DNA from: Rhododendron vialii
Taxonomy: Eukaryota; Streptophyta; Magnoliopsida; Ericales; Ericaceae
Reading direction: 5' to 3'
DNA: 64,000 nt
NCBI RefSeq assembly: GCF_030253575.1
Contig: NC_080558.1
Span: 19,808,611-19,872,610 of the forward strand
The position numbers and the translations under genes were made by a program. Positions 5,794 through 62,008 of the stretch are shown one piece after another; positions within the stretch are counted from its first letter, which is position 1; each line of letters opens with the position of its first letter. The notes below the pieces were generated by a model, which saw only the letters and a list, made by a program, of their open reading frames with translations, searched no databases and was not told the origin of the DNA.

Positions 5794-5794
<1 letters not shown>

Positions 5795-7690: not shown

Positions 7691-7921
7691 TGCTCCCCAA
7701 TACGAATGAGTGAAACTAATCTCGTAGTTCGTATTTTTCAAACAAATACCAAGAACACAACAGTTATACTAAAAAGTGACTTTATTCATAATCTGTAAAA
7801 CTCAAGAGGGCGTTATTCGTACCCCTTGCAACTAGAATAATCAAAACTAGAACAAGGGAATTATATTCGTAATTCCCACACAAGTACGTAGTGCAAATCT
7901 AAAACAGAACTTAATGCTTCT

Positions 7922-12026: not shown

Positions 12027-12032
12027 ATGGTC

Positions 12033-13610: not shown

Positions 13611-13611
13611 T
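13593..13611 (-). other. Primer binding site of the Tat element
   Basis: On the minus strand, TGGCGCCGTCTGTGGGAA follows the end of the 5' LTR after two bases. Its position and TGGCGCC start fit a tRNA 3'-end complement used to prime minus-strand DNA synthesis. I do not assign the tRNA species. Confidence 0.75.
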
Positions 13612-13612
13612 T

Positions 13613-14545
13613 GTAGGGGGATGAAAACAATTGATGTTTCGGATCACCTTGGATTGCAACGGCTTATTCGTGCCTCTTCACCGGAACCCTATTTCGTCGT
13701 TGGAACCCTAATCTGCAAAATAGATAGGGGGTGAGTGCACCTTTGCCTCTCGTGGCAAAGGCCCTCCGATGCAAAAGTTAGTATCACGTACTAGCAATCA
13801 AAACCCTAATTATCAGTAGGAAAGCAATCAGAAAACAATGTATTGCGTACCGTTTTCCTCTAGGTTTACCTCGTATTTATAGATTTGTGTATGCTTGTTG
13901 CCCAAGCATCTCTGTTGCCATAGGATTTCCATCTCGTATAGGAAACCCAAGATATCAGGATTCTCGTTTCCTTTATCAGTTTATTGGAAAAGAGTCCTCT
14001 TTGGATTCTTTTCCATAATGAGCTGAACATCCCATACTCGTTGGGTATCTTTCTCAGATCCTATATTCTTGGGATCTCATCCCTTAACGGAATTCCATTG
14101 TTTCTGGATCCTTCCAGAGTGTTCTTTTTACTCCAACATCTGATTGGATTTCTTTCTCTGTTCGACTGTCTCATCGCCGAACAGACTGTCTGGACCAATC
14201 ACTTCACATGTAACTGGTCCTTTATCAATTATTTGGACCATTGCCTTGCATGATGACTGTCTCGTCATCCCTCGTATCACGTGCTTGGTTCTTACTTCAT
14301 CTGTTCGACTGTATCATAACCGAGCAGTCTACTTGGACCAGCTACTTCACATGTAACTTGGTCCAATGTAATCGGAATGTCTCTAACTGCCGAACAGTCA
14401 GTTTATAGCCATGACTTCTAATATCATTGGCCCTTATCGCTGTTTAATGCACTGACCGGCGATCAGTCATGTTCAATTTCTCACGTGTGCTTATACACCA
14501 CGTGTTCGACAACTAGATGTACCTGTTCGGGAATACCTCCCTACA
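13613..14545 (-). repeat. 5' LTR (complete) of the Tat element
   Basis: On the plus strand it runs from TGTAGGGGGATGAAAACA to GGAATACCTCCCTACA, 933 bp with inverted termini TGTAGGG/CCCTACA. On the minus strand a TATA box (CTATAAATAC) lies at about 13873-13882. Upstream of it in that orientation are repeated GCCGAACAG words at about 14157-14182, 14388 and 14507. A solo copy of this family is at 21837-22681. Confidence 0.92.
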
Positions 14546-21813: not shown

Positions 21814-23300
21814 GAGGAAAGTCCACGTTCACCCCCTGTAGGGGGATGAAAACAATTGATGCTTCGGATCAACTGGATTGCAACGGCTAATTCGTACCTC
21901 TTCACCGGAACCCTAATTTGTCATCGGAACCCTAATCTGCAAAATAGACAGGGGGTGAGCGCACCTTTGCTTCTCGTGGCAAAGGCCCTCCGATGGCAAA
22001 GTTAGTATCACGTACTAGCAATCAAACCCTAATTATCAGTAGGAAAGCAATCAGAAAGCAATGTATTGCGTACCTTTTTCCTCTAGGTTTACCTCATATT
22101 TATAGATTTTCGTATGCTTGCTGGCCAAGCATCCCTATTGCCATAGGATTCCCAACTCGTATAGGAAACCCAGGATATCAAGGATTCTCGTTTCCTTTAT
22201 CAGTTCATTAGAAAAGAGTCCTTTTGGGATTCTTTTCCATTACTGGCCGAACATCCCACTCTCATTGGGTATCTTTCTCAGATCCTATATTCTCGGGATC
22301 TTATTCCTTAACGGAATACCACACATTCTTGACTCTTCCAGAATGTTGCCTATGCACTAATACTCGACTGGAGTTCTTTCCTTGTTCGGCCAACTCGTTG
22401 CCGAACAGACTTCCTGGACCAGCTACTTCACATGTAACTTGAACCAAACGTAATCAAAATGTCTCTATCTGCCGAATAGTTTAGCTTACACCACTGACTT
22501 CTCTTGTCATTGGCCTTTTAATTAGCCGAACAGACTGCATGGATCAATGACTTCCCATATCATTGGTTCATATCGCTGTTCACCGAACTGCCCGGCGGTA
22601 AGTCCTGTCGTACTTACCACGTGCTCCCAAATATCACGTGTTCGGCAACTAAATGTATGTGCTCGGGAATACCTCCCTACACCCCCTGTGGTTATCGGCA
22701 TATGCGGATACCCCTTTATGGTTCAAAACTGACCACATAACCTACCTGTGGTTTTGAAAATGTGCGGATAGACCCTCTGCCGTCATGTTTTCCATCCATA
22801 TTAACGGAGGTGTATTTCACACACCTCTAGAATGTAATCTGAATCGTTCATAATGTATTGAATAAATAATAGAGTATCTCTGTAAAAAATTATCTCGATC
22901 AGGTATCAATAACCCAGTGATCTAATTTTTAGTAAATTCAAATTTGAAATTTTAATTTCATAATAAAATCGATTTGACCATGAGCTTTTCATTTTTTGAT
23001 TGACTTGAATTTTGGCATAGACGTAGTACTCGTCAAAATTTACAATATCAACGGTTTGGCTTCAATTGTTGGTATACGGGATGGTGTGGTTAGATTTAAA
23101 AAAGAAGAAGAATCAAGGGACGTGATGGGGGTATAACGGTCTTTTAGTGTTGTGTCCGTTAATATGGATGAAAAACATGACGGCAGGGGGTCTATCCGCA
23201 CATTTTCAAAACCACAGGTAGGTTATATGGTCAGTTTTGAACCATAAGGGGGGTATCTGCACATGGCGATAACCATAGGGGGTGAAAGTGGACTTTCCTC
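21814..23300. mobile_element. Mutator-like non-autonomous element with 9-bp target duplication
   Basis: Long inverted termini start GAGGAAAGTCCAC on the left and end GTGGACTTTCCTC on the right; complementarity continues for about 135 bp (through GTGCGGATAGACC and its complement near 23195). TCACATATA occurs directly outside both ends (21805-21813 and 23301-23309), a 9-bp duplication typical of Mutator-like transposons. About 640 bp remain when the solo LTR at 21837-22681 is removed. There is no transposase. A related element is at 58368-60408. Confidence 0.88.
21837..22681. mobile_element. Solo LTR of the Tat family inside the Mutator-like element
   Basis: It has the same termini as the Tat LTR (TGTAGGGGGATG...CCTCCCTACA) and similar internal blocks. 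It sits in the left inverted terminus of the Mutator-like element, flanked by CCCCC at 21832-21836 and 22682-22686 (5-bp target duplication). Its 845 bp are more diverged than the two LTRs of the element at 1-14545 are from each other. Confidence 0.9.
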
Positions 23301-23495: not shown

Positions 23496-25485
23496 TGTAG
23501 AATGCTCGTTCGCGGTGAAAGACCCTTATCTCTTTGTGGGCAGCATGCCCTTGGAAATTTCCGGATTTCCAAGCGCGAGGGCTTGGAAATCGAGGGAGCG
23601 CATGTGCGAAAGCAAGCGCTCGTAAATACAGAGTCGCCACTCAGGTTTTGAAGGTCTGACACCCAAGAAACCGTATTTCGAAGCACCTGCCGCACTATTT
23701 GATTTGAAAAAGTTAAGGAACCAGTCCATCATAACCATATCTGGGTTCGGGAGCTAGGTTACGAGAGGGGAAGGGTTTTAAGGCACCCCTCTCGCCCAAT
23801 CCGGAGATCGGTCTCTACTTAAGCATTTTGTGAAAAAGTTTGCGATTCTTCTTTTATTAACCAATTTTAGGCAATTAGGGCGGGGAAATAGTTAATCGGG
23901 GATTTAAAACTATAACACCTTGCAGCATGTGATAGGAGAACAACATGGATGGATGGATATACTAGAAAATAAATGAGGTAACCAACACCGTGGCTGGACA
24001 TCAAAACAGTGCGTTGGAATGAATCCGATACAAGCAGTAGCCAACTTGCATGCATGGATCTGCCAGCATGCAAGTCAACCATTGCGCATCAGACCCATAC
24101 CATCGCGCGATGGTCAAGTCCCTCCAATAGGTTCAATTTTACCTCCTTTTGGGCTCTGGAAGGACTAGTGCACACCCAGGTTCAAACCAAGTAGTTTATA
24201 AGAACTATAAGCAAGTAATTATTACAAATAGAATAACCAGACTTTGCATCAGAACCCCTAAACAGTGGGGGTATTAAAGCAAAGGCCTAGGGCCTAGTTG
24301 CCCATGCAAGGGCAGTTTCTGAAAACAAGAGAACCATCGAGCGATGGTGTGAAACCCTCGCGCGTTGATTCTGACTGGACTTCCAGGAATTGCTTTGCAT
24401 GCCTGGGCTCTGAAACATATTCAGAAGCCACCCAGGGGCATTCCCAAGCTAATGGATACGAGTTCTAAGTTAAACTACGAGTTTCATCATGCAAAAACAG
24501 TGAATCGGTTTTAGTCATGCTTCACAGTTATTCATAACACTGATAAAACAGAAAATAAACTGTCATCCCATCCCCATAAGGTCCATCGCGCGATGACCGG
24601 AACCGTCGCGCGCGTAACTGGGTCCATCGCGCGTGGGAGTGCCCAATGCACGATTTCTGGTAACCTTGCTGACTTTAGGACCAGGACTGGTATAGATTAC
24701 CAGCCTTGGCCCTGTCAGCCCCCCTCAAGGATCAATACAGTAAACAGTAGATATTATACCTTTGCTTGAGTGTTGTGAAAGTGGTTTGAACAAGGTGGTG
24801 TAGCTTGGAAAATGAGTGTATGGATGTGGTTAAAGTGAGGAGGAGATATCAAGTGTGCTAGGACTCGTGGAGTCTTTTTTTTTTTGCTTGAGAATTGGTA
24901 ACCTTTTTTTTGTAACCCTTTGGAAAAAGAACGATGGGGGGTACTTATAGGGCAAGAGGAGATGTATGGTGGGTGGAAGGCAACCAGCCAACAAGGCTGG
25001 CCACCTTCCCTTGGTGGAGGAAGAGGCCAACAAGGTGATGGGAGTGGTTGTGAGGGTGGTGCAACCCATGCACCTACAGAACACTGTTTAGTCGACGAAA
25101 ACAGGGTTCCTCAGGACAGTGGCCCCCTGATCATCACAAAATTCAGTTGGAAAAAGGTGAAAGTGACGGGTGTTTACCATCGAACGATGGAGTGATACCG
25201 TCGCACGACAATTAAACAAGTTCTGCGATGGTCAACAGTCAAGGCTTTGACTTTGACCAACACTTGGCAGATGAAGCATTGCGCGAGGGATCCAATAGGT
25301 CGCGCGATGGTCAAACCTGAGGTCAGGGTTTTGATTTAGGGTTTTTGGGTTTAGGATGGGCTCCACTCACTCCAAGTTTAAACCATTTCACTCTCAAGAC
25401 TGTTTGTGATCTGATTCATCATCGGGAAAACAAGAAACCGAAAATCAACGTAAAACAATCGGGAAGCCGGATTGGGGTGTCTACA
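23496..25485 (-). mobile_element. Ty3-type LTR, minus orientation
   Basis: On the minus strand it runs from TGTAGACACCCCAATCCGG (25485) to GAGCATTCTACA (23496). A TATA-like box (CTATAAGTACCCCCC) is at about 24935-24950 in that orientation. Downstream comes a segment with AAAGGTATAA and GGGGGGCTGACAGGG that is clearly shared with the LTR at 37433-39481. The end segment carries AGAGTCGCCACT. No coding region and no clear target duplication were found; flanks are TTTGT and CTCTT. Confidence 0.65.
24079..25310. promoter_or_regulatory. Five clusters of CCATCGCGCGATGG palindromes, about 21-bp spacing
   Basis: Imperfect to perfect copies of CCATCGCGCGATGG start at 24079 and 24100; 24334 and 24355; 24583, 24603, 24624 and 24643; 25177 and 25198; 25276 and 25297. 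Within every cluster the step is 19-21 bp. Two clusters lie upstream and three downstream of the minus-strand TATA box. The equivalent clusters in the LTR at 37433-39481 use another word. Confidence 0.65.
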
Positions 25486-25844
25486 CTCTTGTGATATCAT
25501 GTTGTATTCACTCACTTTGGATGCATAATCCATTGCATTTTTCATACAACTTGTGTATGGATTTCTCTACTAGGTTAGTGTAGCTCAACCTATCATGGCA
25601 TGTTACAGGACACTATCATGGAGAGTGTGGAGTGCATGCAGACGTCACTGACTAAAGTTATTTTCGGAAGCACTTGTCTATCTTCGTAATACAAACTACA
25701 TTGTATTGTTTTCTTTATTTTTGGAATATTGTACGGGTTGGACAGACTTGTGGACTCAGAAACTGTATTGTATTTTGGGGGTATCGTATGTACTACAATG
25801 AGGATTTTGTATATCAAATTGTGTTGAAAATCGAGGGCGTGACA

Positions 25845-26465
25845 AACCTCAATTTACATAACCACATCACATTTCACATTTTTACCAACATTCTAGTAAT
25901 TTTATAATCTTTGAATAAATTAAAATTTTGGCGGGTATCTACAGTAATGCCATTTGAATGGAAAGAGAAGATAATATAAACACAGGGTTCGGTTCAAAGA
26001 TTGCGACTCCATGACTGTCTATTTGAAGGATTGTGGATACTTAAATTAGACTTTTAAATATCAAATCTCAAAGTCAAACAATTATTGGCTGCCAATTTAG
26101 GTGTTGCTTCCTTGTCTTTTTTTTGAGCTTTTTGAGTTTTGTCTTCATTCAATTTTTTTTTTTTTTTTTTGCGTTTGTTGTTATCGTGTCAAACTTGTAT
26201 GGATTATTGGTTCTCTTGTCGAGACGAATCAAAAAAGTAAATAATTTTTACTTTTACCAAATATTTTGAAAATATCACCCAATGCTTTTATCTTGAATAT
26301 TCCTAAAAATATTTGGGTAAAACTAAAAAAATTACTTTGTTAGTTATTTTTGAAACGAATCAATAATTCAAAAAAATTTGACGCAAAATTTGTAAACTCG
26401 ATTTTTTTTAAATAAAGACAAAACGCTCTAAAACCCTAAAAAGCTAAGGAGTTTCAATAAGTCTA
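25845..26465. other. Intergenic, AT-rich, nothing recognised
   Basis: Poly-T runs (about 26151-26170) and scattered AT-rich sequence. I see no reading frame of note, no terminal repeats and no known motif. Confidence 0.5.
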
Positions 26466-26810
26466 TCGACACAGATTGTGCATAGATTTTATTATGGGGC
26501 CCACCACGGGTACCACACAAAGGATCTTAATTGTTCATGAAATGTAAAACATTTTTTCAAGGGCATCTGCGAAAAATTAGTTCAATTCGATACCTATACG
26601 TGTTGGATCCAATCATTTAACTTTCATTATCCAAAAATCTGAACAAAAATTTAGATGATTGGATCGAATATCTATAGGTGTTAGATTGAGCTGATTTTTT
26701 TGCAGAGACTCTTGAAAAAATATTTTACATTTAATTAATGGTTCGGATTATTTGTGTGGGACCCTAATGGGCCCCACAAAAAATTTGTGTGCAATCTGTG
26801 TCAACAGACT
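26466..26810. repeat. Fold-back element 1
   Basis: The left arm, from GACACAGATTGTGCATAG, is matched in reverse complement by the right arm ending TGTGCAATCTGTGTC. The arms share GGGGCCC, CAAGGGC..., and a GATTGGATC core near the centre. The whole unit can form one long hairpin. It is non-coding. Confidence 0.7.
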
Positions 26811-26834
26811 TATTGTATTTATTTGTGCAATAAT

Positions 26835-27185
26835 GCTACACACACTACAAAAGTGCATAGATTTGTTGTGCGGCCACTACGGGTCTACACAAATAATCCG
26901 AACCATTCATTAAATGTAAAATATTTTTTCAAGGGCCCCTGCAAAAAATTGGTTCAATTCAATACTTTTAGATGCTCGATTTAATCATTCAACTTTGCAT
27001 TCGGATTTCAGAATAATGAAAAGTTAGATGATTGAATCGAGCACCTGTAGATATCAGATTAAAGCTGATTTTTTGTGGGAGCCCTTAAAAATATGTTTTA
27101 TGTTTAATGAACGGCTCAAATCATTTGTGTAGGACCCGAAGTGGGCCCACACACGGATTTGTGTGGGAATTGTCTGTGTGAACAG
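26835..27185. repeat. Fold-back element 2
   Basis: A second hairpin of similar layout: left arm with CAAATAATCCGAACC and TTTTTTCAAGGGC, right arm with GCCCTTAAAAATATG and GCTCAAATCATTTGTG. The arms flank a centre with GATGATTGAATCGAGC. A diverged copy lies in the duplicated unit at about 28640-28965. Confidence 0.65.
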
Positions 27186-27587
27186 ATTTACGATTATTTG
27201 TTCGTATATAGCTCAAATTTTGCAGTAAGTCTACTGGTACGGAAAATCTGTGCAGATTTGTTGTGGGGCCCATTAGGGTCCCACACAAATGATCCGAGCC
27301 GTTTATTAAATTTAAAGCAGTTTTTCAAGGGTTCCTGCGAAAAATCAGTTCAATTCAATACTTATAGATACTTGATCCAATCATATAACGTTGCACATAT
27401 TTTCTGTACCAGTAGACTTACTGCATGCAGGGTCTGTGCCTATTTTTCCTGTGCAACGTTTCGTTAATATTTTTGGCATGGGATAAGACTAGACACAGTT
27501 GGGGGCACAACAGGGTCAATCTGTAATTGGTTGGTTTTAAATATATTATTTTACTCAAGTGTTTGGTTTGTAGTGTAATTAACCCCT

Positions 27588-27597
27588 TATATAAACA
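27588..27597 (+). promoter_or_regulatory. TATA-like box in unit A
   Basis: TTATATAAAC is followed after about 25-30 bp by a pyrimidine-rich leader-like stretch (GATTCTCTGTCTCTCTC) and a possible splice donor CC|GTATGT near 27717. An identical arrangement lies in unit B (29524). It could be a promoter with a first non-coding exon of the RING gene at 32352; this is inference. Confidence 0.45.
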
Positions 27598-27884
27598 AAC
27601 GCTAATATCTATCGATCACAACCCTTACTTTACTGGAAGCCCTAGATCGACATCAAGAGACGACTCGCGATTCTCTGTCTCTCTCTCGCTCGCTAGCTAT
27701 CAACCTCCCTCTCTCCCGTATGTCTCTCTCTCACGGATGTTTCTCTCTCTCTTTATATATATGCATCTCCATATTTCCCTCTGTTTTGTTGTTTATACAT
27801 ATGTAGCCTGTGTATATATGTCTTAGATATGTGTGTGTATATATTAATCGATCAGTGTATATATTTTACGTAGGGGGAAAAGAC

Positions 27885-28340
27885 AGTTGTTTTTTTTGAA
27901 TGACAAAAGAAAATTTTATTAATCATTTAGTGTACTTGAGGGATGATGGCATCAAATTCTAAGCTAAGCTAAGAACTATCTTTTGCCCACCCGAGAATCA
28001 AGCATAGGTTAGCAAGAAACCAACCCAAAGGAACACCCATTGGAGCAAAGCCCATAACACCTATTCGGTCAAACCAAACTCCTAAGGGTCTCATACCCGG
28101 ATATACCATATACAGCTCAAGGGCGGGCCAAGACCAGTCCAGCCCAAAAACCCTAACCGTAAGCAGATAACACCACCGCCACCCAAACCGCCGGGGACAC
28201 TCCCGGCAAGTCCAAACCACCACCCAAAACCCCAAGGCCAAAAACTCAAAACCATCAGACACCGCATAATCGTCGCTGTCCTCACCCATTCTCTGACCTC
28301 CGTTGAGTCCACCGAGCACGGTGAGGATAATATGTGAACA
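27885..28340 (-). mobile_element. Retroposed fragment with poly(A) side at left, unit A
   Basis: The minus strand ends in AATAAAATTTTCTTTTGTCATTC followed by a run of eight A, which looks like a polyadenylated 3' end. Upstream is a 116-codon open frame (28319-27969) with no recognised family. A second copy is at about 29900-30350. Target duplications were not resolved. It may be a 5'-truncated LINE or a processed transcript. It predates the segmental duplication because both units carry it. Confidence 0.45.
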
Positions 28341-29021
28341 TATTTATCCCAGCACTTTTCCCATATTTCATGATCATTTGTTTTGCATATTTAGATTACT
28401 GGTATCGTTAAGTGCTCTTATCAAGTAATATGGCTGTGTTGCTAATTCATTTATGGAACTGCAATCTGGAATATTCCCATATTTCATGATCATTTTTTAC
28501 AGGGACTCTTGAAAAAATATTTTACATTAATGGTGAGGATTATTTGTGTGGGACCCTAATGGGCCCCACAAAAAAAATATGTGTGCAATCTGTGTCAACA
28601 AACTTATTGTATTTATTTGTGCAATAATGCTACACACACTACAAAAGTGCATAGATTTGTTGTGCGGCCACTATGGGCCTACACAAATAATCTGAGCCAT
28701 TCATTAAATGTAAAATATTTTTTCAAGGGCCCTGTGAAAAATTGGTTCAATCCAATACTTTTAGATGCTCGATTTAATCATTCAACTATTCATTCGGATT
28801 TCAGAATAATGAAAAGTTAGATGATTGAATTGAGCACTTACAGATATCGAATTAAAACTGATTTTTTGTGGGGGCCTTTAAAAATATGTTTTATATTTAA
28901 TGAACGGCTCAAATCATTTGTGCAGGACCCGAAGTGGGCCCACACAAGGATCTGTGTGGGAATTGTCTGTGTGAACAGATTTACGGTTATTTGTTTGTAT
29001 ATAGCTCAAATTTTGCAGTAA

Positions 29022-29261
29022 GGCCCCGTTCCGGAACGTGAAATAAGTACTTATTTTTTAAGAAGGCAATTTCAAGCTAAAAAATAATGTATTTACGCAA
29101 ATAATTTTTTTACCAATATGGATCTTGTCTAATAGATCTCATCAAGATCTTTAATACAGTGCAAAAAAAATTAAAAAATTATTTTTTCATTTACATTATT
29201 TTTGAGTTTGAAAATGTGAAATAAGCTGTTTATCTTTTAAGAAAGTTTCTGGAACATGGCC
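29022..29261. mobile_element. PIF/Harbinger (Tourist-like) MITE, 240 bp, TAA duplication
   Basis: Termini GGCCCCGTTCCGGAA and TTCTGGAACATGGCC are inverted repeats. TAA flanks both sides (29019-29021 and 29262-29264). Unit A has the uninterrupted site TTTTGCAGTAAGTCTAC at about 27229, with one TAA, which shows the empty site. No coding. A second, truncated copy is at about 39810-40062. Confidence 0.9.
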
Positions 29262-29523
29262 TAAGTCTACTGGTACAGAAAATCTGTACAAATTTGTTGT
29301 GGACCCCACTATGGGTTCCATACAAATAATCCGAGCCGTTGCACAGATTTACCAGTAGACTTAGTGCATGCAGGGTCTGTGCCTATTTTTCCTGTGCAAC
29401 GTTTCGTTAATATTTTTGGCATGGGATAAGACGAGACAGAGTTGGGGGCACAACAGGGTCAATCTGTAATTGGTTGGTTTTAAATATATTATTAAGTGTT
29501 TGGTTTGTAGTGTAATTAACCCC

Positions 29524-29533
29524 TTATATAAAC
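29524..29533 (+). promoter_or_regulatory. TATA-like box in unit B
   Basis: TTATATAAAC as in unit A, again followed by the CT-rich leader-like segment and CC|GTATGT near 29655. It is the copy closer to the RING gene, 2.8 kb upstream of its coding exon. Confidence 0.45.
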
Positions 29534-29673
29534 AAACGCTAATATCTATCGATCACAACCCTTACTTTACTGGAAGCCCTAGATCGACATCAAGAGACGA
29601 CTCGCGATTCTCTGTCTCTCTCTCGCTCGCTAGCTATCAACCTCCCTCTCTCCCGTATGTCTCTCTCTCACGG

Positions 29674-29680
29674 ATGTTTC

Positions 29681-29773
<93 letters not shown>
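29674..29773. repeat. Compound (CT)n(TA)n microsatellite
   Basis: About 70 bp of CT followed by about 24 bp of TA. Unit A has only a short version (about 27745-27764), so the expansion followed the duplication. ORFs of repeated Ser-Leu and Ile-Tyr over this tract are not genes. Confidence 0.95.
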
Positions 29774-29776
<3 letters not shown>

Positions 29777-30495
29777 TCTCCATATTTCCCTCTGTTTTGT
29801 TGTTTATACATATGTAGCCTGTGTATATATGTCTTAGATATGCGTGTGTATATATTAATCGATCAGTGTATATATTTTACGTAGGGGGAAAAGACAGTTG
29901 TTTTTTTTGAATGACAAAAGAAAATTTTATTAATCATTCAGTGTACATGAGGGATGATGGCATCAAATTCTAAGCTAAGCTAAGAACTATCTTTTGCCCC
30001 CCCTCCCCCCCAGGATCAAACATAGGTTAGCAAGAAACCAACCCAAAGGAACACCCATTGGAGCAAAGCCCACAACACCTATTCGGTCAAACCAAACTCC
30101 TAAGGGTCTCATACCCGGATATACCATATACAGCTTAAGGGCGGGCCAAGCCCAGTCCAGCCCAAAAACCCTAACCCTAAGCAGATAACACCACCGCCAC
30201 CCAAACCGCCGGGGACACTCCCGGCAAGTCCAAACCACCACCCAAAACCCCAAGGCCAAAAACTCAAAACCATCAGACACCGCATAATCGTCGCTGTCCT
30301 CACCCATTCTCTGACCTCCGTTGAGTCCGCTGAGCACGGTGAGGATAATATGTGAACATATTTATCCCAGCACTTTTCCCATATTTCATGATCATTTGTT
30401 TTGCATATTTAGATTACTGGTATCGTTAAGTGCTCTTATCAAGTAATATGGCTGTGTTGCTAATTCATTTATGGAACTGCAATCTGGAATATTCC

Positions 30496-30962
30496 TGTGA
30501 TGTCTCTTGGTTAGTCGAATTGTATAGGATTGGTCTCAATCCTTTTTGGAAGGGTGGAGACGTTTTTGTTTGACTTTTTGACTTGCTTGGAAGGGTTTTC
30601 TCTCTCTTTATGGATTTGTCTTCTGCACAAAAGGTGATTTTCTTGAGCAAAATGTAATAATACCTCACTATCTGAAATATCACCATTTAGGAATTATTCT
30701 GCACAGTAATAGTGATATTAATAGAAAATTACCTTAACTCAAGTCCTAATGGTTACCACAATGAGAACTGTTCATACAATGGAAGATAACATCAATCCCA
30801 GAGAAAACATCATTCACTCCAAAATGGGTTGTCACTCTCCATCACTGAATCAATTAGCCAATTTCCCACGTTTTGCTATATTTTCCTACATATTAGCAGT
30901 TTGATATCCATGTTGAAAATTGACCTTGTTATACTGAATCGGTCAATAAGGTTTCATGGTTT

Positions 30963-30999
<37 letters not shown>

Positions 31000-31170
31000 A
31001 AATGGGTTGCCTCTTGTGACTATTGAACCTTGGCCCTTTTCCATGGCCAAATTATAGGGACAAAATAGGTTGAGTGGGACAAAGTAAATAAATAAATTGG
31101 TGTTGTTTAGGAGTGGAAAATGAAAATTTAACCTCAATCAAACGATGGTGCTGGCCCATTTTTAAAACCA
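30496..31170. other. Intergenic or intronic stretch, no gene
   Basis: Contains a (CT)n microsatellite at about 30965-30997 and otherwise ordinary AT-rich sequence. If the RING gene starts in the duplicated units, this is part of its 5' intron. Confidence 0.5.
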
Positions 31171-31179
31171 TGGCACCTA

Positions 31180-31820
31180 GGGTTGTAAACAAGCCTAGTC
31201 GAACCAAACTTTATCTTGCCCGATCTCGGCTCGCCCTAATTTTCCTAGGCTCAAGGTCGGCTCAAGCTCGAACAGAGCTCAAATTAGATTTGCCTTTGCG
31301 CTGCACTAACAGGGGGAGGGAGAGAGCTGGGTTCTTTAATTATAAGTTATACTGGTACAGTGATTGTGAGTTCTCTTGACTGTCCAATGTGGGACTAATT
31401 TTTTCCCTCAAGGCGTGCAGCCTTCCTCAAGACTTGTCCCACATTAGTACAAATTGCTCAAGGGGTATGCACTCCTCCCCTATAAAATTGTGCAGTTGAC
31501 CAAGTCTTTCCACAGTCTGACGCTTAGTGTGGCTGTCCAAGCTGCATCTTAACATGTGCCCAGAGCAAGGCATACACAAATGTTTTATATACACAAATAT
31601 ATACATATGTATTGGAATATATGTTATGTATCATATATATGTTGGCTCGCCAGCTCATACGAGCCAAGCATCTAGTGGCTTGAGCTCGGCTCATTTACGA
31701 AACAAGATGAGAATGATGGCTCGAGCTTGTTCGTTTGTTTGACGAACTGAGTTTGAACGAGCCATTAGCAAGCCAAGCCTCGAGCTGCTAGCTAACAACT
31801 CAGCTCATTTGTAGCTCTGG
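31180..31820. mobile_element. hAT-like non-autonomous element rich in GCTCG words
   Basis: The unit starts at GGGTTGTAAACAAGCC and ends TTTGTAGCTCTGG. It is flanked by TGGCACCTA on both sides (31171-31179 and 31821-31829), an 8-9 bp duplication as for hAT elements. Both ends are rich in inverted GCTCGAGC/GAGCC words. In the middle an inverted pair, TCCAATGTGGGAC and GTCCCACATTAG, forms a hairpin. Related sequence lies in the acyl-activating enzyme intron (about 61155-61330 and 63165-63320). Confidence 0.55.
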
Positions 31821-32351
31821 TGGCACCTAACTGAATGGATAGATTGATGAGAAAAGAACTAGAACGTCTTTCTTTATGAACTCAAATTTCATGTGAGCAA
31901 CTGGTGTGTTCTTCTTGGTATTTGTAAGCACCGAGAACTGACTTTGAGTCAAGACATGTTTCTTAATTTAATTTATATTTCGTAAGTCCTACTTGGCTAC
32001 TTTTTGAGGGCTATCTTGGATTCGTCCTCGCGCTTTGGTTGGTAAATGAGATTTTTATTGCAATTTGTTATTGTTTGGCCTTGATTATGCGACATTGGCC
32101 CAAAGAAACATTTCTTTGTGATATTGTGTCCCTTTGTTCTTTAAGTTACTTCCTAGTATAGATGAATTTGCGTCAGATGGGGAAAGGTAATGTTAAAAAT
32201 CATTATGTTCGGCATTGATCAATCTTGTTCATGGTAACATAATAATATGCTTGCTGCCTTTTTTGATTTGGTTTATCAAATTCCACTACTCATCTAGTCG
32301 TCTTCATGTTAATTTGACTAACACATTCATTTTGGTATCAGATCATACGAC

Positions 32352-33014
32352 ATGGATGTTAAGTATTCCTATTGTTGCCGGCAGGATGATAGCATTATCC
32401 CAGAGAAGAGGAAAGGGAAGTATGATGGCTTTTTTGTTTATGTGCGGATGTGTCATAAACTGAGGAAGATTGCTAATGGGGGCAGTGATGCGGATGACAA
32501 CGAAGTAAAGCTGGGCACAGTGTGTTCTATCTTTACTGTGAACCGCAGTGAGTTTCTAGCAGGAGAGAAACTCAGGTATCGTATGTATACCTGCTGTCTA
32601 CCTTTAGCGTATGTACCAGACGACAGTGTAAAGGACTCAATAGTAGACGAGGTGCACAGATTTGGCTGTTCAATGCTGGACTTAGGGTTGAAGCCATTGC
32701 CGCTTCTTGTGGATGTTGGGATTAGCATGTTGCAGTTACCTGGTGAGAGTGAAGATGAGGGGATTGCCAGGGCTATGATGAAAATGAATGTTTGGGACTG
32801 CGTGCCTGCCACTAAAGCATCTATTGGAGCATTAGAGGAAGTGGTTTTTGATGGTTTTTGGTCGGTGAAGGAATGTGGCAAGTGCTCAAAGACCCTTGCA
32901 GTAGGGAAGCTTGCTCGTATGCCGTGCTCTCATGTATTTCATCGGCAATGTATTTATGCGTGGCTGGCGGGTATCCACATGTGTCCAATTTGCCGCTTTA
33001 CTATGCCCTGCTGA
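32352..33014 (+). CDS. RING-H2 finger protein, probable E3 ubiquitin ligase
   Basis: A 220-residue frame begins MDVKYSYCCRQDD and ends ICRFTMPC. The C-terminal 45 residues form a RING-H2 finger: CGKC, then PCSHVFHRQC, then CPIC, in the C-x2-C, C-x-H-x2-H-x2-C, C-x2-C order. Such fingers bind an E2 enzyme and direct ubiquitin transfer to a target. The N-terminal 165 residues have no motif I know; there is no membrane segment. The exon is preceded by a good acceptor (TTTGGTATCAG, 32331-32341) only 10 bases before the ATG, so a 5' non-coding exon lies upstream, possibly in the duplicated units at 26.7-30.5 kb. The frame is intact and codon use looks normal. Substrate and process are unknown. Confidence 0.85.
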   Translation: MDVKYSYCCRQDDSIIPEKRKGKYDGFFVYVRMCHKLRKIANGGSDADDNEVKLGTVCSIFTVNRSEFLAGEKLRYRMYTCCLPLAYVPDDSVKDSIVDEVHRFGCSMLDLGLKPLPLLVDVGISMLQLPGESEDEGIARAMMKMNVWDCVPATKASIGALEEVVFDGFWSVKECGKCSKTLAVGKLARMPCSHVFHRQCIYAWLAGIHMCPICRFTMPC

Positions 33015-33465
33015 TCTAATTGATAAATGAGTTGATTGTTATCGTTAGTTGCTAGTAAGTATTGAACTTGGTGGACTTGGTGGGGACATGAGGCTTGAGG
33101 GTGGCTGAACAACAAGTTGCTATGTGATGTTTCTTTTGGTTTGGTTATGAATCTATTTCCTCCAAAAAAAATGAGTGTGATGATAATATTGGCTAGGAAT
33201 GCTTGAACACTGCGAAGGAGTGGTGAATATTACATAACTATCTTGGAAATGAAATTGATTTAAAATCACTATTTTCTGATCCGTCCTTTTATAGTTTAGT
33301 TGATCAATGTTGGAACAGCCCCTCTTATTCCATTTTTGGCAGATCTGGAGAAGTTCCCCACTGGAGTCAAAGTTTGGAATAAAGTCTTTTGAAACTTGTT
33401 CTATTGTAATAGAATATTTTAGCTAGACTAGTTGCCTTTCCAACGTGATGCTAGGCCAAGCCTTT

Positions 33466-33685
33466 TGGGTGCAATTTTGTTCACCCTCCTTAGAAGAGGG
33501 TGAATATTACCCTCTTTTCCATTGGTTAAAATGGTGTGGATTTTACTACAAATTGATGTCATAATTATCATGCAATACATTTTTTGGTAAGCATAACATT
33601 ACTTTTTGGTGGGATTCACACCATTTCAACCAATAGGAAGGAGGGTAATGTTCACTCTCTTAAGTGGATGGTGAACAAAACTCAA
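33466..33685. mobile_element. Hairpin MITE
   Basis: Left arm with TTTTGTTCACCCTCC, AATATTACCCTC and CCATTGGTTAAAATGGTGTGG; right arm with CACACCATTTCAACCAATAGG, GAGGGTAATGTTCAC and GGTGAACAAAACT. The arms are reverse complements. No coding. The target duplication was not resolved. It lies in the 3' flank of the RING gene. Confidence 0.7.
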
Positions 33686-33879
33686 CTCAAGACTTTTTTT
33701 TTATCTTATCTGGAAAAATCTGACTTTGGAGTATAATTACTTTTTTGTTGAAAGAAGATTTCCGGAGACTCAAGTCGTGTTTGAATTGCAGATCATAACA
33801 CTAATTTTCACTTGCCCACCTTTAATAGGAGTGTGAACACGATTCACACTACTTGAGACCGCGATAATATTTGCCGAGT

Positions 33880-34355
33880 CGGTGGCGGCAAGAAAGTTCA
33901 TCAGCTCCTTATGATAATTAGGGTGACCAAAAATTCAAAATGTCAGTGATGAATGGTTTCAAGAATTTCGTTCCCTAATATTGGATCGAGACCCCAACCC
34001 CGATTCACACCTCTAAGTACATGCATGAAAATAAACCAAGCACAAAAGAGAGATATCCAAGGAAAACCTCCTTGTACATATTTACACCTGTATACATCTA
34101 GAAAAACCTCTCCGAGAGAGCTGCAAACTGGCTTCCTCACTCCTCTCTCTCTCCCCCTCACTTCGGTGGCTCTCCAACGGAGTATCCGAGCATCTCCGAG
34201 GAGCACCGATTGTCCACTCACGTCTCTCCACACTAGCTCACTCTCTACTCTCTGACTCTCACTCATGTCTCTCCACACACAATGCACACTGCCTTAAGGC
34301 ATTCTAAAATAGGGAGAAGAAAAAACCTTGGGTCCCATTTAGGGTGGACTCCAAC
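33880..34355 (-). mobile_element. LTR-like fragment, minus orientation (possibly Copia)
   Basis: On the minus strand it begins TGTTGGAGTCCACCC at 34355 and reads through a CT/GA-rich leader. TGTTGGA-type starts are common in plant Copia LTRs. The other end and any second LTR are not clear, and no pol domain lies near. Weak call. Confidence 0.35.
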
Positions 34356-34679
34356 AATCACCCCCTCCTCCCCGAGTGGGTAATTGCTAAACCCGTAGTG
34401 CTGTTCAGTCCGGCTACAATCCTGCCACACTAGCATCTCTGCATCCCCAGCCAAGCTCCTCCAAACCGAGATACACAACTCACCAATCCGACTATCCGAG
34501 ATAGGCGCTGATATGCCGCACCCCCTCATCAGGTGCTTGCATCTAGTTGGAACGGCCCACTTGGGGTGAGTGTGAACTGGAGTGTGCCAGGTTTAGGGCC
34601 GACCCCCTTTTGTTGAGGCAACCTACGTGCCACTCCTACACGTAGTTGAGCCATCTGGCCTGGAGGCGTACCGGCCCAT

Positions 34680-35075
34680 GTAGGAGTTGTACAAAGAGAC
34701 ATTGGTTTTGCGGGACCGAGCGCAACACTTGTTTGAGAGATGTGCTGAGGTATGCTTTAGTATTTGCATTTCAACACATAGCTTGTATTTCCATTCCTTG
34801 CCTTTGATTACCATGTTGATTGATGAATTTACTTCATTTATTGAAACAGGAGGTGGTGGTGACGTGCTACGGGGGTGAGGCCAAGGTGCCAGAGTTTTGG
34901 AAGAAGCTCCCCGAGCCAGTGAGAGGGATTGTGAGGCAGGCCGGCTTTAGTCAAGAGGTGGTGGGACACGATGAACTCGTTCCACTTCCCTCTTGGTGAG
35001 ATGATGGTGACACAGCTGAACTTTGCGGCGATTACGAGCTTGAGGGTTGGAGTGACCCGATTTGAGACTCCTCGA
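34680..35075 (+). pseudogene. Fragment of a plant mobile domain (PMD) protein
   Basis: Two exon-like pieces, joined across a likely intron (GTATGC at about 34751 to ...GAAACAG at about 34850), give segments such as VPEFWKKLPEPVRGIVRQAG and, in another frame, NSFHFPLGEMMVTQLNFAA followed by ITSLRVG. The F-x-P-x-G-E-M-x-V-T pattern is typical of the plant mobile domain found in MAIN-like proteins and in some plant transposons. A frame change near 34960 and the lack of the rest show it is a broken remnant. Overlapping minus-strand sequence beyond 35072 belongs to another fragment. Confidence 0.55.
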
Positions 35076-35641
35076 ATGACCTTAGTTCTCCAATGATGAT
35101 ACGGAACAGAACCATGAGCTTGCATGAAGGCTTGATCAACGACTTTTAGCATCCCAGAACCTAAACCACAATTCAAGAACTGCCCAGCACAAGACATGAA
35201 CTGCCTAGCATAAGATAGTCCAACCCACTCCCCAACGCTGAGAATCTTTTTTTTGTTTCTAACAGTTCTGACTACTGTAGGAATCTCATCATGACCCCTA
35301 TACAGCATCTAGCTAACTCTAAGTTTGCATAGACGCTCCTCCGCTTCCCTATAAATAGAGGTGTCTAGAGCCATATTTAGACCACTACATATTGCAAACA
35401 ACTCCCCCATTCTTGAAACTCTCTCAAGTTTGGAACTCATTTCTCTCTCTAGAATATACATATATTTTGGGTTTTCTTCATATATACTTGAAGAAAAATC
35501 TGAGATATCTTGTGTTTTGAAGAGAAAAATCACATTTCCATTCCAAAAACGCCCACTTCCTCTATACTTCACAGTAAAAATCCCCTTCATCATTTCCCAA
35601 TTCAAGACACCCATGCAAACCTCAAAGTTTTGATCAAGCAC
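35072..35641 (-). pseudogene. Unrecognised gene fragment, one in-frame stop
   Basis: One minus-strand frame is open from 35641 to about 35072, apart from a TAG at 35309-35311. It includes EEENPKYMYILER-like and VGEWVGLSYARQFMSCAG segments and ends near HHWRTKVIRG, where sequence of the PMD fragment begins. The length and non-repetitive composition suggest a real exon once. I do not recognise the family. A plus-strand TATAAATA at 35351 overlaps it. Confidence 0.4.
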
Positions 35642-35733
35642 TCAAAAAGGTAGAAAACTACCAACATTTCTGGTTTCTGTTTATCTGAGGAAACTAGAAA
35701 CCCAAAGCAGAGATACAAGCAGGCTAACGCGAT

Positions 35734-37057
35734 TGTGGACACCTTCTCGAAGGGGCAATGCCACACAGATATCCTCAATACTTATTTCCTCTTTATTAAT
35801 CAAAATCGTGGATATTTCCACGATAGGAATATCTCCACACGATAATGATCACTGCTAAATAGAGTCGCCACTTAGTTTATTAAAACTAAGAAAATAAATA
35901 GAGATTTCGGGTACAGAAGCCAAAAGTATGATAAGGGGAAGGTGTTAGGCACCCATTTTTGCCCGATCGCAAGACTAGCCCATAATCATTCAATATAAAC
36001 TTAATATTTGCTTTACTTAATTCTACACAAATAAGCTGGTTATTAAGTCTTTAAATAGTTAATAAGGTGAGCCAGGACAGTAAGTAAATCACATGCATTC
36101 AACTAGATAAAAATAGAAAGCTGTTCCAACAGATGGATTCCACGGCCGGTGAATGGTTTTCACGGCCGTGGGATCCCACTAGATTGATATATTGCTCATG
36201 GGAATGATGTCCCAGCCGATGTTCTTCCTCACATCAGAATATGGATAATTAACGGAAAATCAGAAGCACTACGACCACAATACAAAACAAAGAAATAGAT
36301 TAAACCATAGGTCATTGGGCCTCACCACCTTGATCCCTCAGTTCACAATTGCTTCGGAATTAGGGTGATTGATTGATTTTCTTCTCGAAATCCTAGGATT
36401 AGGGTTTGTACTCCGGGGTTTGATTGCTCAGATTGCGGCTGCTCACGAGGGTTGACGGCTTTCGTAGAGAGAGTATGAGAGATGCTTTTTGCAGAGTTTC
36501 ATGGCTAGAAATGAATGAATTGAATGTGTATTTTGGAACCCTAAGGCCTCTTTATATAGACAATGGGTGACTCACTCCAACCAATTAAATGGCGTGAATC
36601 AATAAGGTAAGTTAGGGCCAGTAGAACTCTGTTTGGAATCACTTTCGTAGCCCCGAAGTAACGCTTCGTGGCTGCTAGGGTTTAAGCGTCGATCAAACGA
36701 GACAAAACATTCCAGAATTCTGGTCTAAGATGATCTAGTGGCCTCTAGATCCTTCTAGCAGCCAAGGAAACTATCTCACGGAGAAATTTCAACCACCATA
36801 TTCCACGAGTGACAGAAAAGATTTAAAGGGCACGAGATCGATCTAGCGGCCAACAGGATGTATTTGATTGGATAACTATATTTCTATCTTGAATGGCTTT
36901 TCGGCTCTGGATTGGGCCCTCTAAATGGCTAGAAGTACTCACAAAAGTTCTTAGGTTTACAAGAAGTCAATCAACAATCACTTTATCCTATTCATCATTG
37001 GGATGGTCCCAAAGGTGGGACTTGAAATACTTGTTCGGCCAAATTGGGGTGTCTATA
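35734..37057 (-). mobile_element. Ty3-type LTR, minus orientation, related to 23496-25485
   Basis: On the minus strand it starts TATAGACACCCCAATTTGGCC (37057) and ends GGTGTCCACA (35734). It shares the AGAGTCGCCACT block (near 35864) and the terminal ...GACACCCCAAT start with the LTR at 23496-25485. A TATA-like box (CTATATAAAG) is at about 36551-36561 in that orientation. A pair of words, CCACGGCCGGTG at 36140 and TCACGGCCGTGG at 36160, lies about 890 bp after the LTR start. No coding. Confidence 0.6.
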
Positions 37058-37432
37058 GATTTCCCTCTTTGATTGAACTTGGACGGGCCGCTAGGCATGT
37101 TAAGTAAAAATCAAAGCCATAAAACAACTCAATTTGATCAAACAACTATCTTCAGGGTTTTTTGAAAAAGGTTTTTAGTTATGGCCGGGCTAGGTGTCTG
37201 CTGACGTATTCTACAAGGAAAATTTAGACCAATCGTAGTTTGGGGCAGAACAAAAAGTGCAGAGGTTTCGGAAAAGAAAATGTACCTTTGGGCTTAAAAA
37301 ACTATAGTGCAACGTACCTAAGCCATGCTAGGATTTTTATGGAGGGTAGTTGATGGAGCGTGGAGCTGGTAGGGGAATAGTTGGGGGTGAACATCCTCAG
37401 TAGTTTGGGGTAGATCAATACACAGCGGGTTA
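37058..37432. other. Non-coding element sequence between two LTRs
   Basis: No reading frame is recognisable. The order LTR, this sequence, LTR start could be internal sequence of an element or an old flank. The segment TTTCCCTCTTTGATTG directly next to the LTR does not look like a primer binding site. Confidence 0.4.
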
Positions 37433-37603
37433 TGTAGATACCCTATTTTGGACTTTCCAGATTAGCTTACTTACGGTATTTAATTCCTCGATGATGAATA
37501 AGATCAAGAACACACCGAGAATGTTAATGTGTTTGAGCTTTGAGCGGATAAACCCCTTTCAAACCCTTTAAATTAGAACCAAAAAGCCTCAGCCAAACCC
37601 TAC

Positions 37604-39199
37604 CTGCATACGCTGGTCCCACATCGGCGTACGCTGGTCCACTGCCACGTGTCAGTCATCGGTCAGCTTTGACCATTGACTAGGCTTGGACTGGCACGCG
37701 TAGGTCCAGTACTAGCGTACGCTGGTCAAAGGTAGTCCTATCACCTTTATACAACAACATTTATGGGACTTTTGTGGCACCCCAGTACCCTGATCATTCG
37801 TCTGAGAAGTGATCACGGATAGGGGGATGTTCCCCCCTCTCTCATACAACCCCCATCACCTTGTCATATGCATTTAATGAAGGAAGACTTCATTGCCAAG
37901 TTAACCAGCCACCTTTGGCTGGTTACACTCAACTCCCCTCCTATATATACCCCCATTTGTATCTCATACAAGGGGTTACATAGTTATAGGCTTGGTTGCT
38001 AGGTTGGTTCACCAAAAGCTATCAAGTTATAGCCCCATCTTCTTCCTTGTTCAAATCCTTTTCCTACCAAGGTTTAACAAGCATTTCATATACCACATCA
38101 TACATCCATCCATAAACACCATTCACCACTCAACCTCAAGTTCAAGCTCTTTCATCTTTCAAACTCAAAACCAAAGGTATAACACCTTTGAAAACTCTCT
38201 GTTCTAATCCCTAAAGGGGGCTGGCAGGGTCAAGGTTGGTAATCAATACTAGTCCTGACCCTAAATCTAGCAAAGTTTCAAAGTTGTTTGTGGCTAGAAC
38301 TGGCGCACGCCAGTCCAAGTACGCGTACGCCAGTCATGGCTATACGTGAAGTACTGGCCTGGGGATCAGTGTCCAGTTGTTTTCTATCTTACATTTCATA
38401 TATCTCACTGTGAGCATGCTAAGAACCAGTCTACTACTTTCCTTCACTAGAACTGCTAGTTTTGCTATTCAATATTCATACTTGCTACTTTGGTATGCCT
38501 CTGGGGTCTTTCTGAAAATGTCTCAGAACCCAAAAAGTGCAAAGCCAAGCACTGGACAAGATTTTACAACTGGCGTACGTTAGTTCTCTACTCGTGTACG
38601 CCAATCCAGCGCAGTCTAGTGGCTGGCCATTGCAAGGCAATTGGGCCTTGGCCTCTGCTTTTGTCCCCATACTGTTTGTGGGGTGTTTTATTCTTTTGCG
38701 GCTTTAAAGCCCATTTAAATTGTCTATAGCTGTATATACATATTATGCGAAAAAGATATTTGCACCGATGGTTTCCGTAGGGAAACCGTACCGACGGCCA
38801 CGCGTGGCCATCACCCGGCCACCGGACGGCCGATCCGAGCCGTCCAAAAATTTTATAAAAAAAAACTGAGGGGGCCAACGCGGGAATCAATGGCATCAGA
38901 TCAAGCACCCTACACACATCGAATGCCATTGATTCCCGCGTTAGCCCCCTCGGTTTTTTTTTTTTAATTTTTGGATGGCTCGGATCGGCCGTCCGGTGGC
39001 TGGCGACGGCCACGTGTGGCCGTCGATACGGTTTCCCTATGAAAACCGTCGGTGCAAATAGTAGTACTCCATATTATGTATAGACTGCTTGGTTTGTCCT
39101 TGGTGTACACTGATCATTTCTAGATCCCAGAGGGTTGAAAACAAGAACTGTGGGCTTAAGCTGACTGGCGCACGCAAGTTTAGTAGTGGCGTACATAGA
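37604..39199. promoter_or_regulatory. Five pairs of CTGGCGTACGCCAG palindromes, 20-21 bp spacing
   Basis: Copies, some degenerate, start at about 37604 and 37625; 37691 and 37712; 38300 and 38320; 38570 and 38591; 39165 and 39186. Two pairs are upstream and three downstream of the TATA box. The distances from the LTR start (about 170, 260, 865, 1140 and, without the MITE, 1400) closely match those of the CCATCGCGCGATGG clusters in the homologous LTR. Confidence 0.65.
38748..39069. mobile_element. Hairpin MITE with 9-bp target duplication
   Basis: CATATTATG flanks both ends (38739-38747 and 39070-39078). The arms are long inverted repeats, with ATTTGCACCGATGG left and CCGTCGGTGCAAAT right, and GGCCGTCCGGTGG-type inner words. 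The 9-bp duplication suggests Mutator-type mobilisation. No coding. Confidence 0.85.
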
Positions 39200-39473
39200 T
39201 GATATTAGCATATAGTGACTTGGTCAGTGCATACTGGTTTCTTCATGTGCACGTCACCCCGGAGCAGCGTCACCCAGTCTATTTAAAACTCCCACAGGAG
39301 TTTGTTTTCATCCTATACTAACTGTTGCAATAAGCAAGCATGCCATTTTTTCACATCCTGCCAACATGTTACAGTTTTAAATCCCCTTAAATTGTTCTCC
39401 TGCCCTAATTGACTAAAAAAATGATTAATGAGAGAGAATCGCAAACGTTTTATAAATGCCCGAGTAGAGACTG

Positions 39474-39785
39474 ATCTCCGGCCACCGGACGGCCAATCCG
39501 AGCTGTCCAAAAATTCTAAAAAAAAAAAAACCAAGGGGGCCTTCGCGGGAATCAACAACATCCGAGGTGTATAGGATGCTTGATCCGAGCACCCTTTTTT
39601 CGTGTATATGATTTCACACGAAGAAGGGGTGCTCGGATCAAGCACCCAACACACCTCGGATGCCGTTGATTCCCGTGAGGGCCCCTTCGGTTTTTTTTTC
39701 CGAATTTTTGGATGGCTCGGATCGGCCGTCCGGTGGCCGGAGACGGCCTGGCATAGCCGTTGGTATGATTTCCCTCCTCGGCGCT
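39474..39785. mobile_element. Second hairpin MITE of the same family, left end truncated
   Basis: It shares GGCCACCGGACGGCC, CGCGGGAATCAA and TTTTTGGATGGCTCGGATCGG with the MITE at 38748-39069 and forms an inverted repeat around about 39610. The left outer terminus is missing where the LTR at 37433-39481 stops. Confidence 0.75.
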
Positions 39786-46700: not shown

Positions 46701-47495
46701 ATACTTCTCTTTATCTGGTATTTCAGCTGAGATGAATGCATCGATCTTTGCAACTGTGTTAAGCTTGAATGACTTTTTAAGTATCAGCAGCATATGTACA
46801 TGTGGCAAACCTCTCTTTTGGAATTCAACTACAAATGTATATACAGCAATAGGACCAAACAGTTGTTTTTTTACTATTTCTCTTTGCAAATGTTCCAGTT
46901 TACTTCTGAATACTCTTGATAGTAAGTCAGGCCTGTTTTGAGCTTCTTCATGTGGCTTCATTTCATTCTTGATCTCTTGCCAATTTGGATTGCATGTCAT
47001 TGTAAGGAAGAGATCAGGTTTGCCATATCTTTCTACTAATGTCATTGCATCTAGGTATCGCTTGCGCATGTCCCTTGGTCCTCCTATAAAAGAACCTGGG
47101 AGCACAATTCGCTTGCCTATCTTAGAAGGATCAGATTCGCTTTGACCAATGCTATCAACAATTCCTTGATATAAATCAGCTCGAATCTCCTCTTGTTTAT
47201 TTTTGAAATAATCTAACCTTGATGTCTCAATTTTAACGTACATATCAACTGTGAACTATTGGAGAAGACGTGCAGATTCTAACAAAATCGAGTTAGTGTT
47301 GCTTCTGATTTGGAGTCTGTAAGCGTAGAATTCTCGAGCTGAAATCATATTGCTCTTGCGAGCGTTTTCCTGCCGAACTAAACAAAGAGCATGAATTTAG
47401 TCGATGCATAAGTTTAACATATCTGTTTTTTCATAGTATACTAAAGTAAAACAGTAGAGCAAGTCATGAGATTTACCAGTTGTTTCCGTAGTTAT

Positions 47496-61946: not shown

Positions 61947-62008
<62 letters not shown>

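Follow-up and report, generated by a model that had tools for sequence, protein, structure and literature searches.

In a 64,000-nucleotide stretch of the Rhododendron vialii genome (contig NC_080558.1, positions 19,808,611 to 19,872,610; hereafter the window), two homologous long terminal repeats (LTRs), which we call LTR A and LTR B, carry palindromic sites that occupy homologous places, follow one word in each LTR and keep a CpG core in common. The word is CCATCGCGCGATGG in LTR A and CTGGCGTACGCCAG in LTR B, and both fit the frame NNNNCGNNCGNNNN. Judging from the sequence, they probably make up an array of operator-like sites, fixed in layout and read by a dimeric protein of changed specificity, the sites having been replaced in place. 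An original prediction on the same DNA had held that the two LTRs are homologous, that each contains five clusters of palindromes of about 14 bp and that the palindromes were replaced as a set, and it had drawn a parallel with the VANC proteins of VANDAL transposons.

Palindromes at homologous places in two LTRs

The homology of LTRs A and B was confirmed by collinear blastn matches, which form seven blocks in a single order (top three E-values 2.8e-23, 3.9e-15 and 6.6e-6), and by a MAFFT alignment in which 937 of 1635 aligned columns were identical (57%) with the miniature inverted-repeat transposable element (MITE) of LTR B excluded. The backbone blocks common to both include GGGGGCTGRCAGGG, TTTTAAATCCCC and AGTAGAGACYGATCTCCGG. 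The ends of LTR A form a 6-bp inverted repeat (TGTAGA...TCTACA); a clean target-site duplication was not found around it, the flanks reading ACAAGAG / LTR / ACAAAGA. A blastn search for the continuation of LTR B beyond 39481 gave no convincing match to the end of A (best E 0.54), and the inverted-repeat element that truncates LTR B is related to its MITE. No coding or internal region was recognised beside either LTR in the lists of open reading frames (ORFs), which were judged by eye.

The prediction of a distinct word in each LTR also held. At up to 3 mismatches, A contains 8 copies of CCATCGCGCGATGG and B contains 6 copies of CTGGCGTACGCCAG, compared with a mean of 0.04 copies per word in 100 dinucleotide shuffles, and the word of the other LTR was absent from both A and B even at 4 mismatches. 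A word-free search, in which every perfect 14-mer palindrome that could be built from each LTR was tried (words with all four bases), returned exactly these two words as the best-repeated palindromes, again with 8 copies in A and 6 in B. When the window was cut into 2-kb tiles (n = 31, covering all but bases 62001-64000), the tile overlapping A reached 8 copies and five others reached 6-7, all of these with AT-rich words.

Counted from the LTR start, the sites lie at 176/197, 275/296, 849/870/890, 1118/1139 and 1373/1394 in A, and at 171/192, 259/280, 868/888, 1138/1159 and 1403/1424 in B with the MITE taken out. The step within pairs is 21 bp in 5/5 clusters of A and 21, 21, 20, 21 and 21 bp in B, and A cluster 3 holds a third site 20 bp further on, which bears out the five predicted clusters of 14-bp palindromes with a step of 20-21 bp in both LTRs. 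Because the sites might otherwise drive the alignment, they were masked and the LTRs re-aligned under three settings. All 10 A-B site pairs fell in register to within 1 bp, with offsets of +1, +1, -1, -1, -1, 0, 0, 0, 0 and 0 under each of the three, and under a crude model the chance of five random blocks matching within 8 bp is ~1e-8. The cluster places are thus conserved as predicted, with the correction that the third cluster of A starts at 849 rather than at about 830. That chance palindromes have been over-read in a CpG-containing LTR is scarcely credible: a number of sites match poorly and the same data supplied the words, but the shuffles (0.04 versus 8 and 6), the masked register and the word-free tests all speak against it.

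The set-wise character of the change was examined by label swapping, in which homologous sites were exchanged between A and B and each arrangement was scored as the within-LTR minus the between-LTR similarity. Under independent change of single sites, such exchanges should make no difference. With 10 site pairs, the third site of A cluster 3 being left out for want of a clear partner in B (8 mismatches at best), the observed split ranked 1/512, and it ranked 1/16 when whole clusters were exchanged. Since this test used site positions known from the words, a second, word-free label swap was run, with sites located by CGNNCG in either LTR and the CG letters unscored. It kept the third site of A cluster 3 and lost the last pair (1394/1424), and the observed split again ranked 1/512 among 10 pairs. 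The label swaps are the fair tests among our contrasts, and for A and B they support the prediction that the sites were replaced as a set.

A further LTR in the window, LTR C, is a possible distant relative. It opens with TATAGACACCCCAATTTGG, and towards its other end GGGTGCCTAACACC and GTGGCGACTC occur, as in A. In a scan of the window outside A and B, a single pair of CGNNCG strings with a step of 20 or 21 bp was found, at 36139-36172 in LTR C. Copies of CTAGATCGATCTAG occur there not only in the weak pair (Table 1) but also with 1 mismatch at 36833-36846 (212 from the LTR C start) and at 866 (3 mismatches) and 942 (4 mismatches); at up to 3 mismatches this makes 3 copies versus 0.08 in shuffles, one of which (866) lies outside the cluster places. 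The places 212, 300 and 886 are similar to those of the first three clusters of A and B, and in this respect LTR C is suggestive support for the position and the step. We rejected it as a full third case: its local alignment score was 42 against A, barely above the maximum of 30 shuffles (40), and 31 against B, which is not above shuffles, and its hallmark blocks gave E-values of 0.003-0.007 under lenient scoring in a tiny search space.

Table 1. Coordinates of the LTRs, palindrome clusters and associated features in the window
Feature	Position	Strand	Remarks
LTR A	23496..25485	minus	1990 bp; starts TGTAGACACCCC, ends ATTCTACA
LTR B	37433..39481	plus	starts TGTAGATACCC; holds MITE; truncated at 39481 by inverted-repeat element 39475-39775
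MITE within LTR B	38748..39069		9-bp direct repeat CATATTATG on both sides; boundaries by eye
A cluster 1	25276..25310	minus	two sites, step 21 bp, word CCATCGCGCGATGG
A cluster 2	25177..25211	minus	two sites, step 21 bp, one with 5 mismatches
A cluster 3	24583..24637	minus	three sites, steps 21 and 20 bp, middle site with 5 mismatches
A cluster 4	24334..24368	minus	two sites, step 21 bp
A cluster 5	24079..24113	minus	two sites, step 21 bp; one is the sole perfect copy, the other has 5 mismatches
B cluster 1	37603..37637	plus	two sites, step 21 bp, word CTGGCGTACGCCAG, 5 and 4 mismatches
B cluster 2	37691..37725	plus	two sites, step 21 bp, first degenerate (6 mismatches)
B cluster 3	38300..38333	plus	two sites, step 20 bp
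B cluster 4	38570..38604	plus	two sites, step 21 bp
B cluster 5	39165..39199	plus	two sites, step 21 bp, second degenerate (6 mismatches)
First TATA-like box of A	24944..24949	minus	TATAAG, LTR position 537; putative promoter element
First TATA-like box of B	37942..37947	plus	TATATA, LTR position 510; putative promoter element
LTR C, possible distant relative	35716..37057	minus	ends approximate, ~1342 bp; hallmarks TATAGACACCCCAAT, GGGTGCCTAACACC, GTGGCGACTC
Palindrome pair in LTR C	36139..36172	minus	step 20 bp, word TCCACGGCCGTGGA, 2 mismatches each, same CG frame; 886/906 from LTR start
Weak palindrome pair in LTR C	36725..36758	minus	step 20 bp, word CTAGATCGATCTAG, 2 and 4 mismatches; 300/320 from LTR start

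What was kept and what was replaced

Both words have the form C...CG-YR-CG...G, with the core CGCGCG in A and CGTACG in B. Since the length and the CpG core are common, it is the outer arms and the centre that were replaced and not the whole site, so that the predicted swap of the entire palindrome stands for these parts only. In the aligned part of the LTRs (the first 1690 bases of A, and B without the MITE), 10/10 CGNNCG strings of A and 6/6 of B fall in sites; elsewhere, the final 130 bases of A have two such strings and the MITE of B has four. Sites hold 30 of the 72 CpGs of A in 154 of its 1990 bases, and 21 of the 38 CpGs of B in 154 of 1719 bases. Core CpGs of A were retained in B in 14/17 cases, versus 5/21 outside sites (Fisher p 0.0008), and those of B in A in 14/16 cases, versus 5/16 (p 0.003). 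In B the palindrome reaches 16 bp, with A at position 0 in 9/10 sites and T at position 15 in 10/10, and this extension is weaker in A, where A precedes the site in 5/11 cases and T follows it in 8/11. At the centre, where A has CG and B has TA or CA, the difference may be due in part to the decay of methylated CpGs. We infer that such decay does not explain the difference in the outer arms (CCAT versus CTGG).

The cores themselves recall the sites of host transcription factors: CAMTA-type factors recognise the CGCG box and SBP/SPL-type factors GTAC. CGCG is present in 7/11 sites of A, while GTAC is found in 6/10 sites of B and GCAC in 3/10. The two LTRs might therefore have changed their regulatory niche by recruiting two different host factors, for example a CAMTA-type factor in A and an SBP/SPL-type factor in B, and host-factor sites are known in plant LTRs, such as the heat elements of ONSEN (PMC5059998). 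We nevertheless consider this explanation unlikely, as unrelated factors would not be expected to retain the 14-bp length, the CG frame, the 20-21 bp pairing and the ten positions, and the long outer arms extend past the short CGCG and GTAC cores.

A different possibility is that the palindromes act as RNA or single-stranded DNA, two sites 7 nt apart folding into a 14-bp hairpin, much as has been suggested to yield small RNAs from the palindromes of Sirevirus LTRs; in maize, clusters of these palindromes attract small RNAs (PMC10760457, PMC5311732). Six segments (clusters 3-5 of each LTR) were folded, each against 200 shuffles. B cluster 3 (38290-38350) gave a z-score of -3.5, with 0/200 shuffles as good, and B cluster 4 (38560-38620) a z-score of -2.1, with 7/200 as good, but the remaining four segments did not clearly exceed their shuffles (z +1.0, -1.5, -0.4 and +1.0). 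Furthermore, complementarity within pairs was not above that between clusters (9.0 versus 9.35 of 14 in A, 8.4 versus 8.5 in B), and a hairpin does not require one word over five clusters. The mean self-symmetry of the sites was the highest of these measures (9.6 of 14 in A and 9.0 in B, against partner-site complementarities of 9.0 and 8.4), as would be expected of sites for protein dimers and not of hairpins, although the differences are small and carry no statistical test. Because most folds did not clearly exceed their shuffles and the partner complementarity was not raised, the hairpin explanation was mostly rejected and we regard it as quite improbable.

Homogenisation without function, in which short tracts of conversion, or switches of template by the reverse transcriptase, spread a word inside an LTR, would also give one word per LTR. 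The best evidence for it is a 32-bp block common to A clusters 2 and 4, which is 84% identical including the spacer (E 6e-5); a 32-bp match between B clusters 2 and 5 is 75% identical (E 0.36). The targets of VANC proteins evolve partly through repeat formation (PMC5735166). This process leaves the symmetry, the kept CG frame and the 20-21 bp spacing unexplained, and since the flanks are alignable in A-B register, tracts would need to end just a few bases from the palindrome almost every time. We consider homogenisation without function distinctly unlikely.

A putative reader and its precedents

The reading that we favour is an array of about ten sites in five pairs per LTR, each site a palindrome of 14-16 bp in the frame A-NNNN-CG-NN-CG-NNNN-T that would bind a symmetric protein dimer. 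Palindromes repeated about two helical turns apart are the form expected for cooperating pairs of symmetric dimers, and at a step of 20-21 bp two dimers would sit on the same face of the DNA and could bind cooperatively. The specificity for the outer arms and the centre would have changed between two element lineages, and the sites would then have followed singly, through point substitutions under selection that left their positions unchanged. Replacement of the arms with retention of the core suggests a change of specificity within one protein family, and not two unrelated readers. The putative reader is most likely an activator or an anti-silencing factor. It could be a product of the full-length element or a host protein that evolves fast; we put its encoding by the element at about one in three.

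In both A and B, clusters 1-2 lie upstream of the first TATA-like box and clusters 3-5 downstream of it. With two clusters on one side and three on the other, the array more likely sets the state of chromatin or transcription across the entire LTR than acts as a single core-promoter element. Further TATA-like strings occur at LTR position 1286 in A (TATAAA) and at 1301 (TATATA) and 1689 in B with the MITE out, and if those at 1286 and 1301 were the promoter, four clusters would be upstream instead. The string CAAAGGTATAA, conserved at position 725 of A and 743 of B (window ~24761 and ~38175), resembles a 5' splice site, and clusters 3-5 could then sit inside an LTR intron.

Several points weigh against the array as we read it. 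The full case is made by two LTRs only, so the set-wise change is a single comparison, and no full-length member of the family was recognised within the window. Several sites are degenerate: 3/11 sites in A have 5 mismatches to the word, and among the 10 sites in B the number of mismatches is at most 3 in six, 4 in one, 5 in one and 6 in two. The original statement that all copies within an LTR share one word therefore applies to the 8 and 6 good copies, several other sites having 4-6 mismatches. The presence of two words in LTR C, if it belongs to the family, further weakens a strict rule of one word per LTR. In addition, the low identity at the word-differing columns (21/88, versus 832/1419 elsewhere) is partly circular because those columns come from the consensus words, and the retention of core CpGs is favoured by the choice of sites because the words used to find them contain those CpGs.

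The nearest parallel that we found is with the RM boxes of Sireviruses (Ty1/copia), where 13 elements carry 8-32 palindromic copies per element with element-specific words, including the 14-mer GTCGGACGTCCGAC. Their 3' LTRs hold 3-14 palindromic copies each, with a CGG-CCG core in 12/13 elements (the exception being Tnd-1, while some Sireviruses are without boxes), and 117/127 of these copies are found in the upper LTR half, upstream of the TATA box (PMC2829016). A regulatory role was proposed for these motifs in that paper, in the available text of which a single binding factor is not identified. Maize Sirevirus palindromes are also fast-varying hotspots of small RNAs (PMC10760457, PMC5311732). 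As in Sireviruses, the motifs described here are multiple palindromes of plant LTRs whose word differs between elements around a core that holds CpG. Unlike CGG-CCG, the core of A and B is CGNNCG (CGCGCG and CGTACG), although CGGCCG, which would fit the Sirevirus core, is present in the LTR C pair at 36139-36172, and unlike the upper-half clustering of Sirevirus motifs, three of the five clusters of A and B lie downstream of the first TATA-like box. Swapped words at homologous sites in a fixed register are not described in the available text of PMC2829016. A C-rich integrase signal of the Sirevirus type (~21 bp from the LTR end) was looked for without a motif model: five consecutive C do not occur in the last 100 bases of A, where the final CCC starts ~45 bp before the LTR terminus, and LTR B is without its end.

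The VANC parallel of the original prediction is apt in that motif sets differ between relatives and change together, but it is not the closest one. VANC proteins bind short motifs specific to their own VANDAL family, which change together via tandem repeats; as printed, the target motifs are 8-9 bp and non-palindromic, and the tandem repeats expand and contract (PMC5735166, PMC10398659). Here too there are multiple short noncoding motifs whose set differs between relatives and changes together, in this case between two LTRs only. In contrast to VANDAL elements, which are Mutator-like DNA transposons, A and B have LTR structure (the terminal TGTAGA and TCTACA, and a TATA-like box), and whereas VANC targets lie in tandem repeats, the sites of A and B stay between alignable, mostly unique flanks, apart from the 32-bp block common to A clusters 2 and 4, and the tandem repeats listed for the window include one array among the sites (24580-24633, in A cluster 3). 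Among other LTR elements, ONSEN and other heat-responsive COPIA elements of the Brassicaceae gain and lose binding sites in their LTRs between relatives (PMC5059998); unlike in A and B, the sites there are of a single kind and belong to a host heat shock factor, and a coordinated change of many sites was not found in the available text of that paper. Retand/Tat elements (Ty3/gypsy) have LTRs of 315-1194 bp and an antisense ORF, TRP28, predicted to be DNA-binding (PMC11963269). TRP28 is a conceivable type of reader and is taken as a lead only; LTR A, at 1990 bp, is longer than the LTRs of these elements. The A/B array would thus appear to work like a cross of Sirevirus palindromes and the VANDAL/VANC system, and we claim membership in neither.

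Palindromic motifs of plant LTRs have been known since 2010, and a named reader was not found in the available text of that literature. Related LTRs with ten common positions and different words constitute a natural specificity-swap experiment, with the frame kept and the address changed, and they indicate both the bases that a reader would contact and the proteins to screen. A more specific proposal is that an LTR lineage whose landing array stays fixed (symmetric sites in five pairs, a 20-21 bp step and a CpG core) occasionally rewrites its address along with a change in the DNA-binding protein that it encodes, an anti-silencing factor or an activator; this is possible but doubtful. If it were true, each lineage would open its own copies only, and addresses would diversify by in-place substitution and not by repeat turnover. 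Were the reader encoded by the element, VANC-like self-recognition would have arisen a second time, in LTR elements, and the system would provide new DNA-binding specificities that can be programmed.

Wider searches and other elements of the window

Searches beyond the window returned no relative of the array. Among viral contigs, 65 stretches contained the 14-mer CTGGCGTACGCCAG, and two backbone patterns had no match; the same contigs contained no match to the integrase-motif pattern and no relative of a gypsy protein of the window, one pattern match having failed tblastn. Genome contigs gave 20 stretches with a backbone pattern, all bacterial by record title, and blastn at E 1e-4 gave no match to A or B for any of the 85 contig loci (65 viral and 20 genome). 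A full-text literature search for the two 10-bp cores listed no paper recognisable as being on retrotransposon LTRs, and no report of swapped words in LTR palindromes was present among the literature matches listed; we do not claim wider novelty. The insertion of LTR elements into palindromes is the subject of PMC6911290.

The window also contains a Ty3/gypsy element at 1-14545 (minus strand), with Pfam matches to reverse transcriptase and gag within 8405-13079 and direct repeats at 1-399 and 14147-14545 that are 97.5% identical; a related LTR lies at 21837-22681. Two antisense ORFs of this element (1239-1799 and 2626-3237) had no Pfam match above cut-off, and a TRP28 search at E 0.1 found nothing in the two antisense ORFs that it covered. 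A paired-word array in its 934-bp LTR (13612-14545) was considered and rejected, with 7 matches at up to 4 mismatches versus 2.3 in shuffled sequence and a best repeated palindrome of 2 copies. Within 6001-8500 of the element the word TCTCGTACTTAA recurs, and TCTCGTACTT is present in 10 copies (up to 1 mismatch) on both strands of a 1.5-kb stretch. At 44044-47243 (minus strand), long ORFs resemble a Helitron-type helicase, as judged by eye with no search run. Tandem duplications in two copies were found at 4885-5599 (356 bp, 100% matches) and at 52181-52882 (350 bp, 95%).

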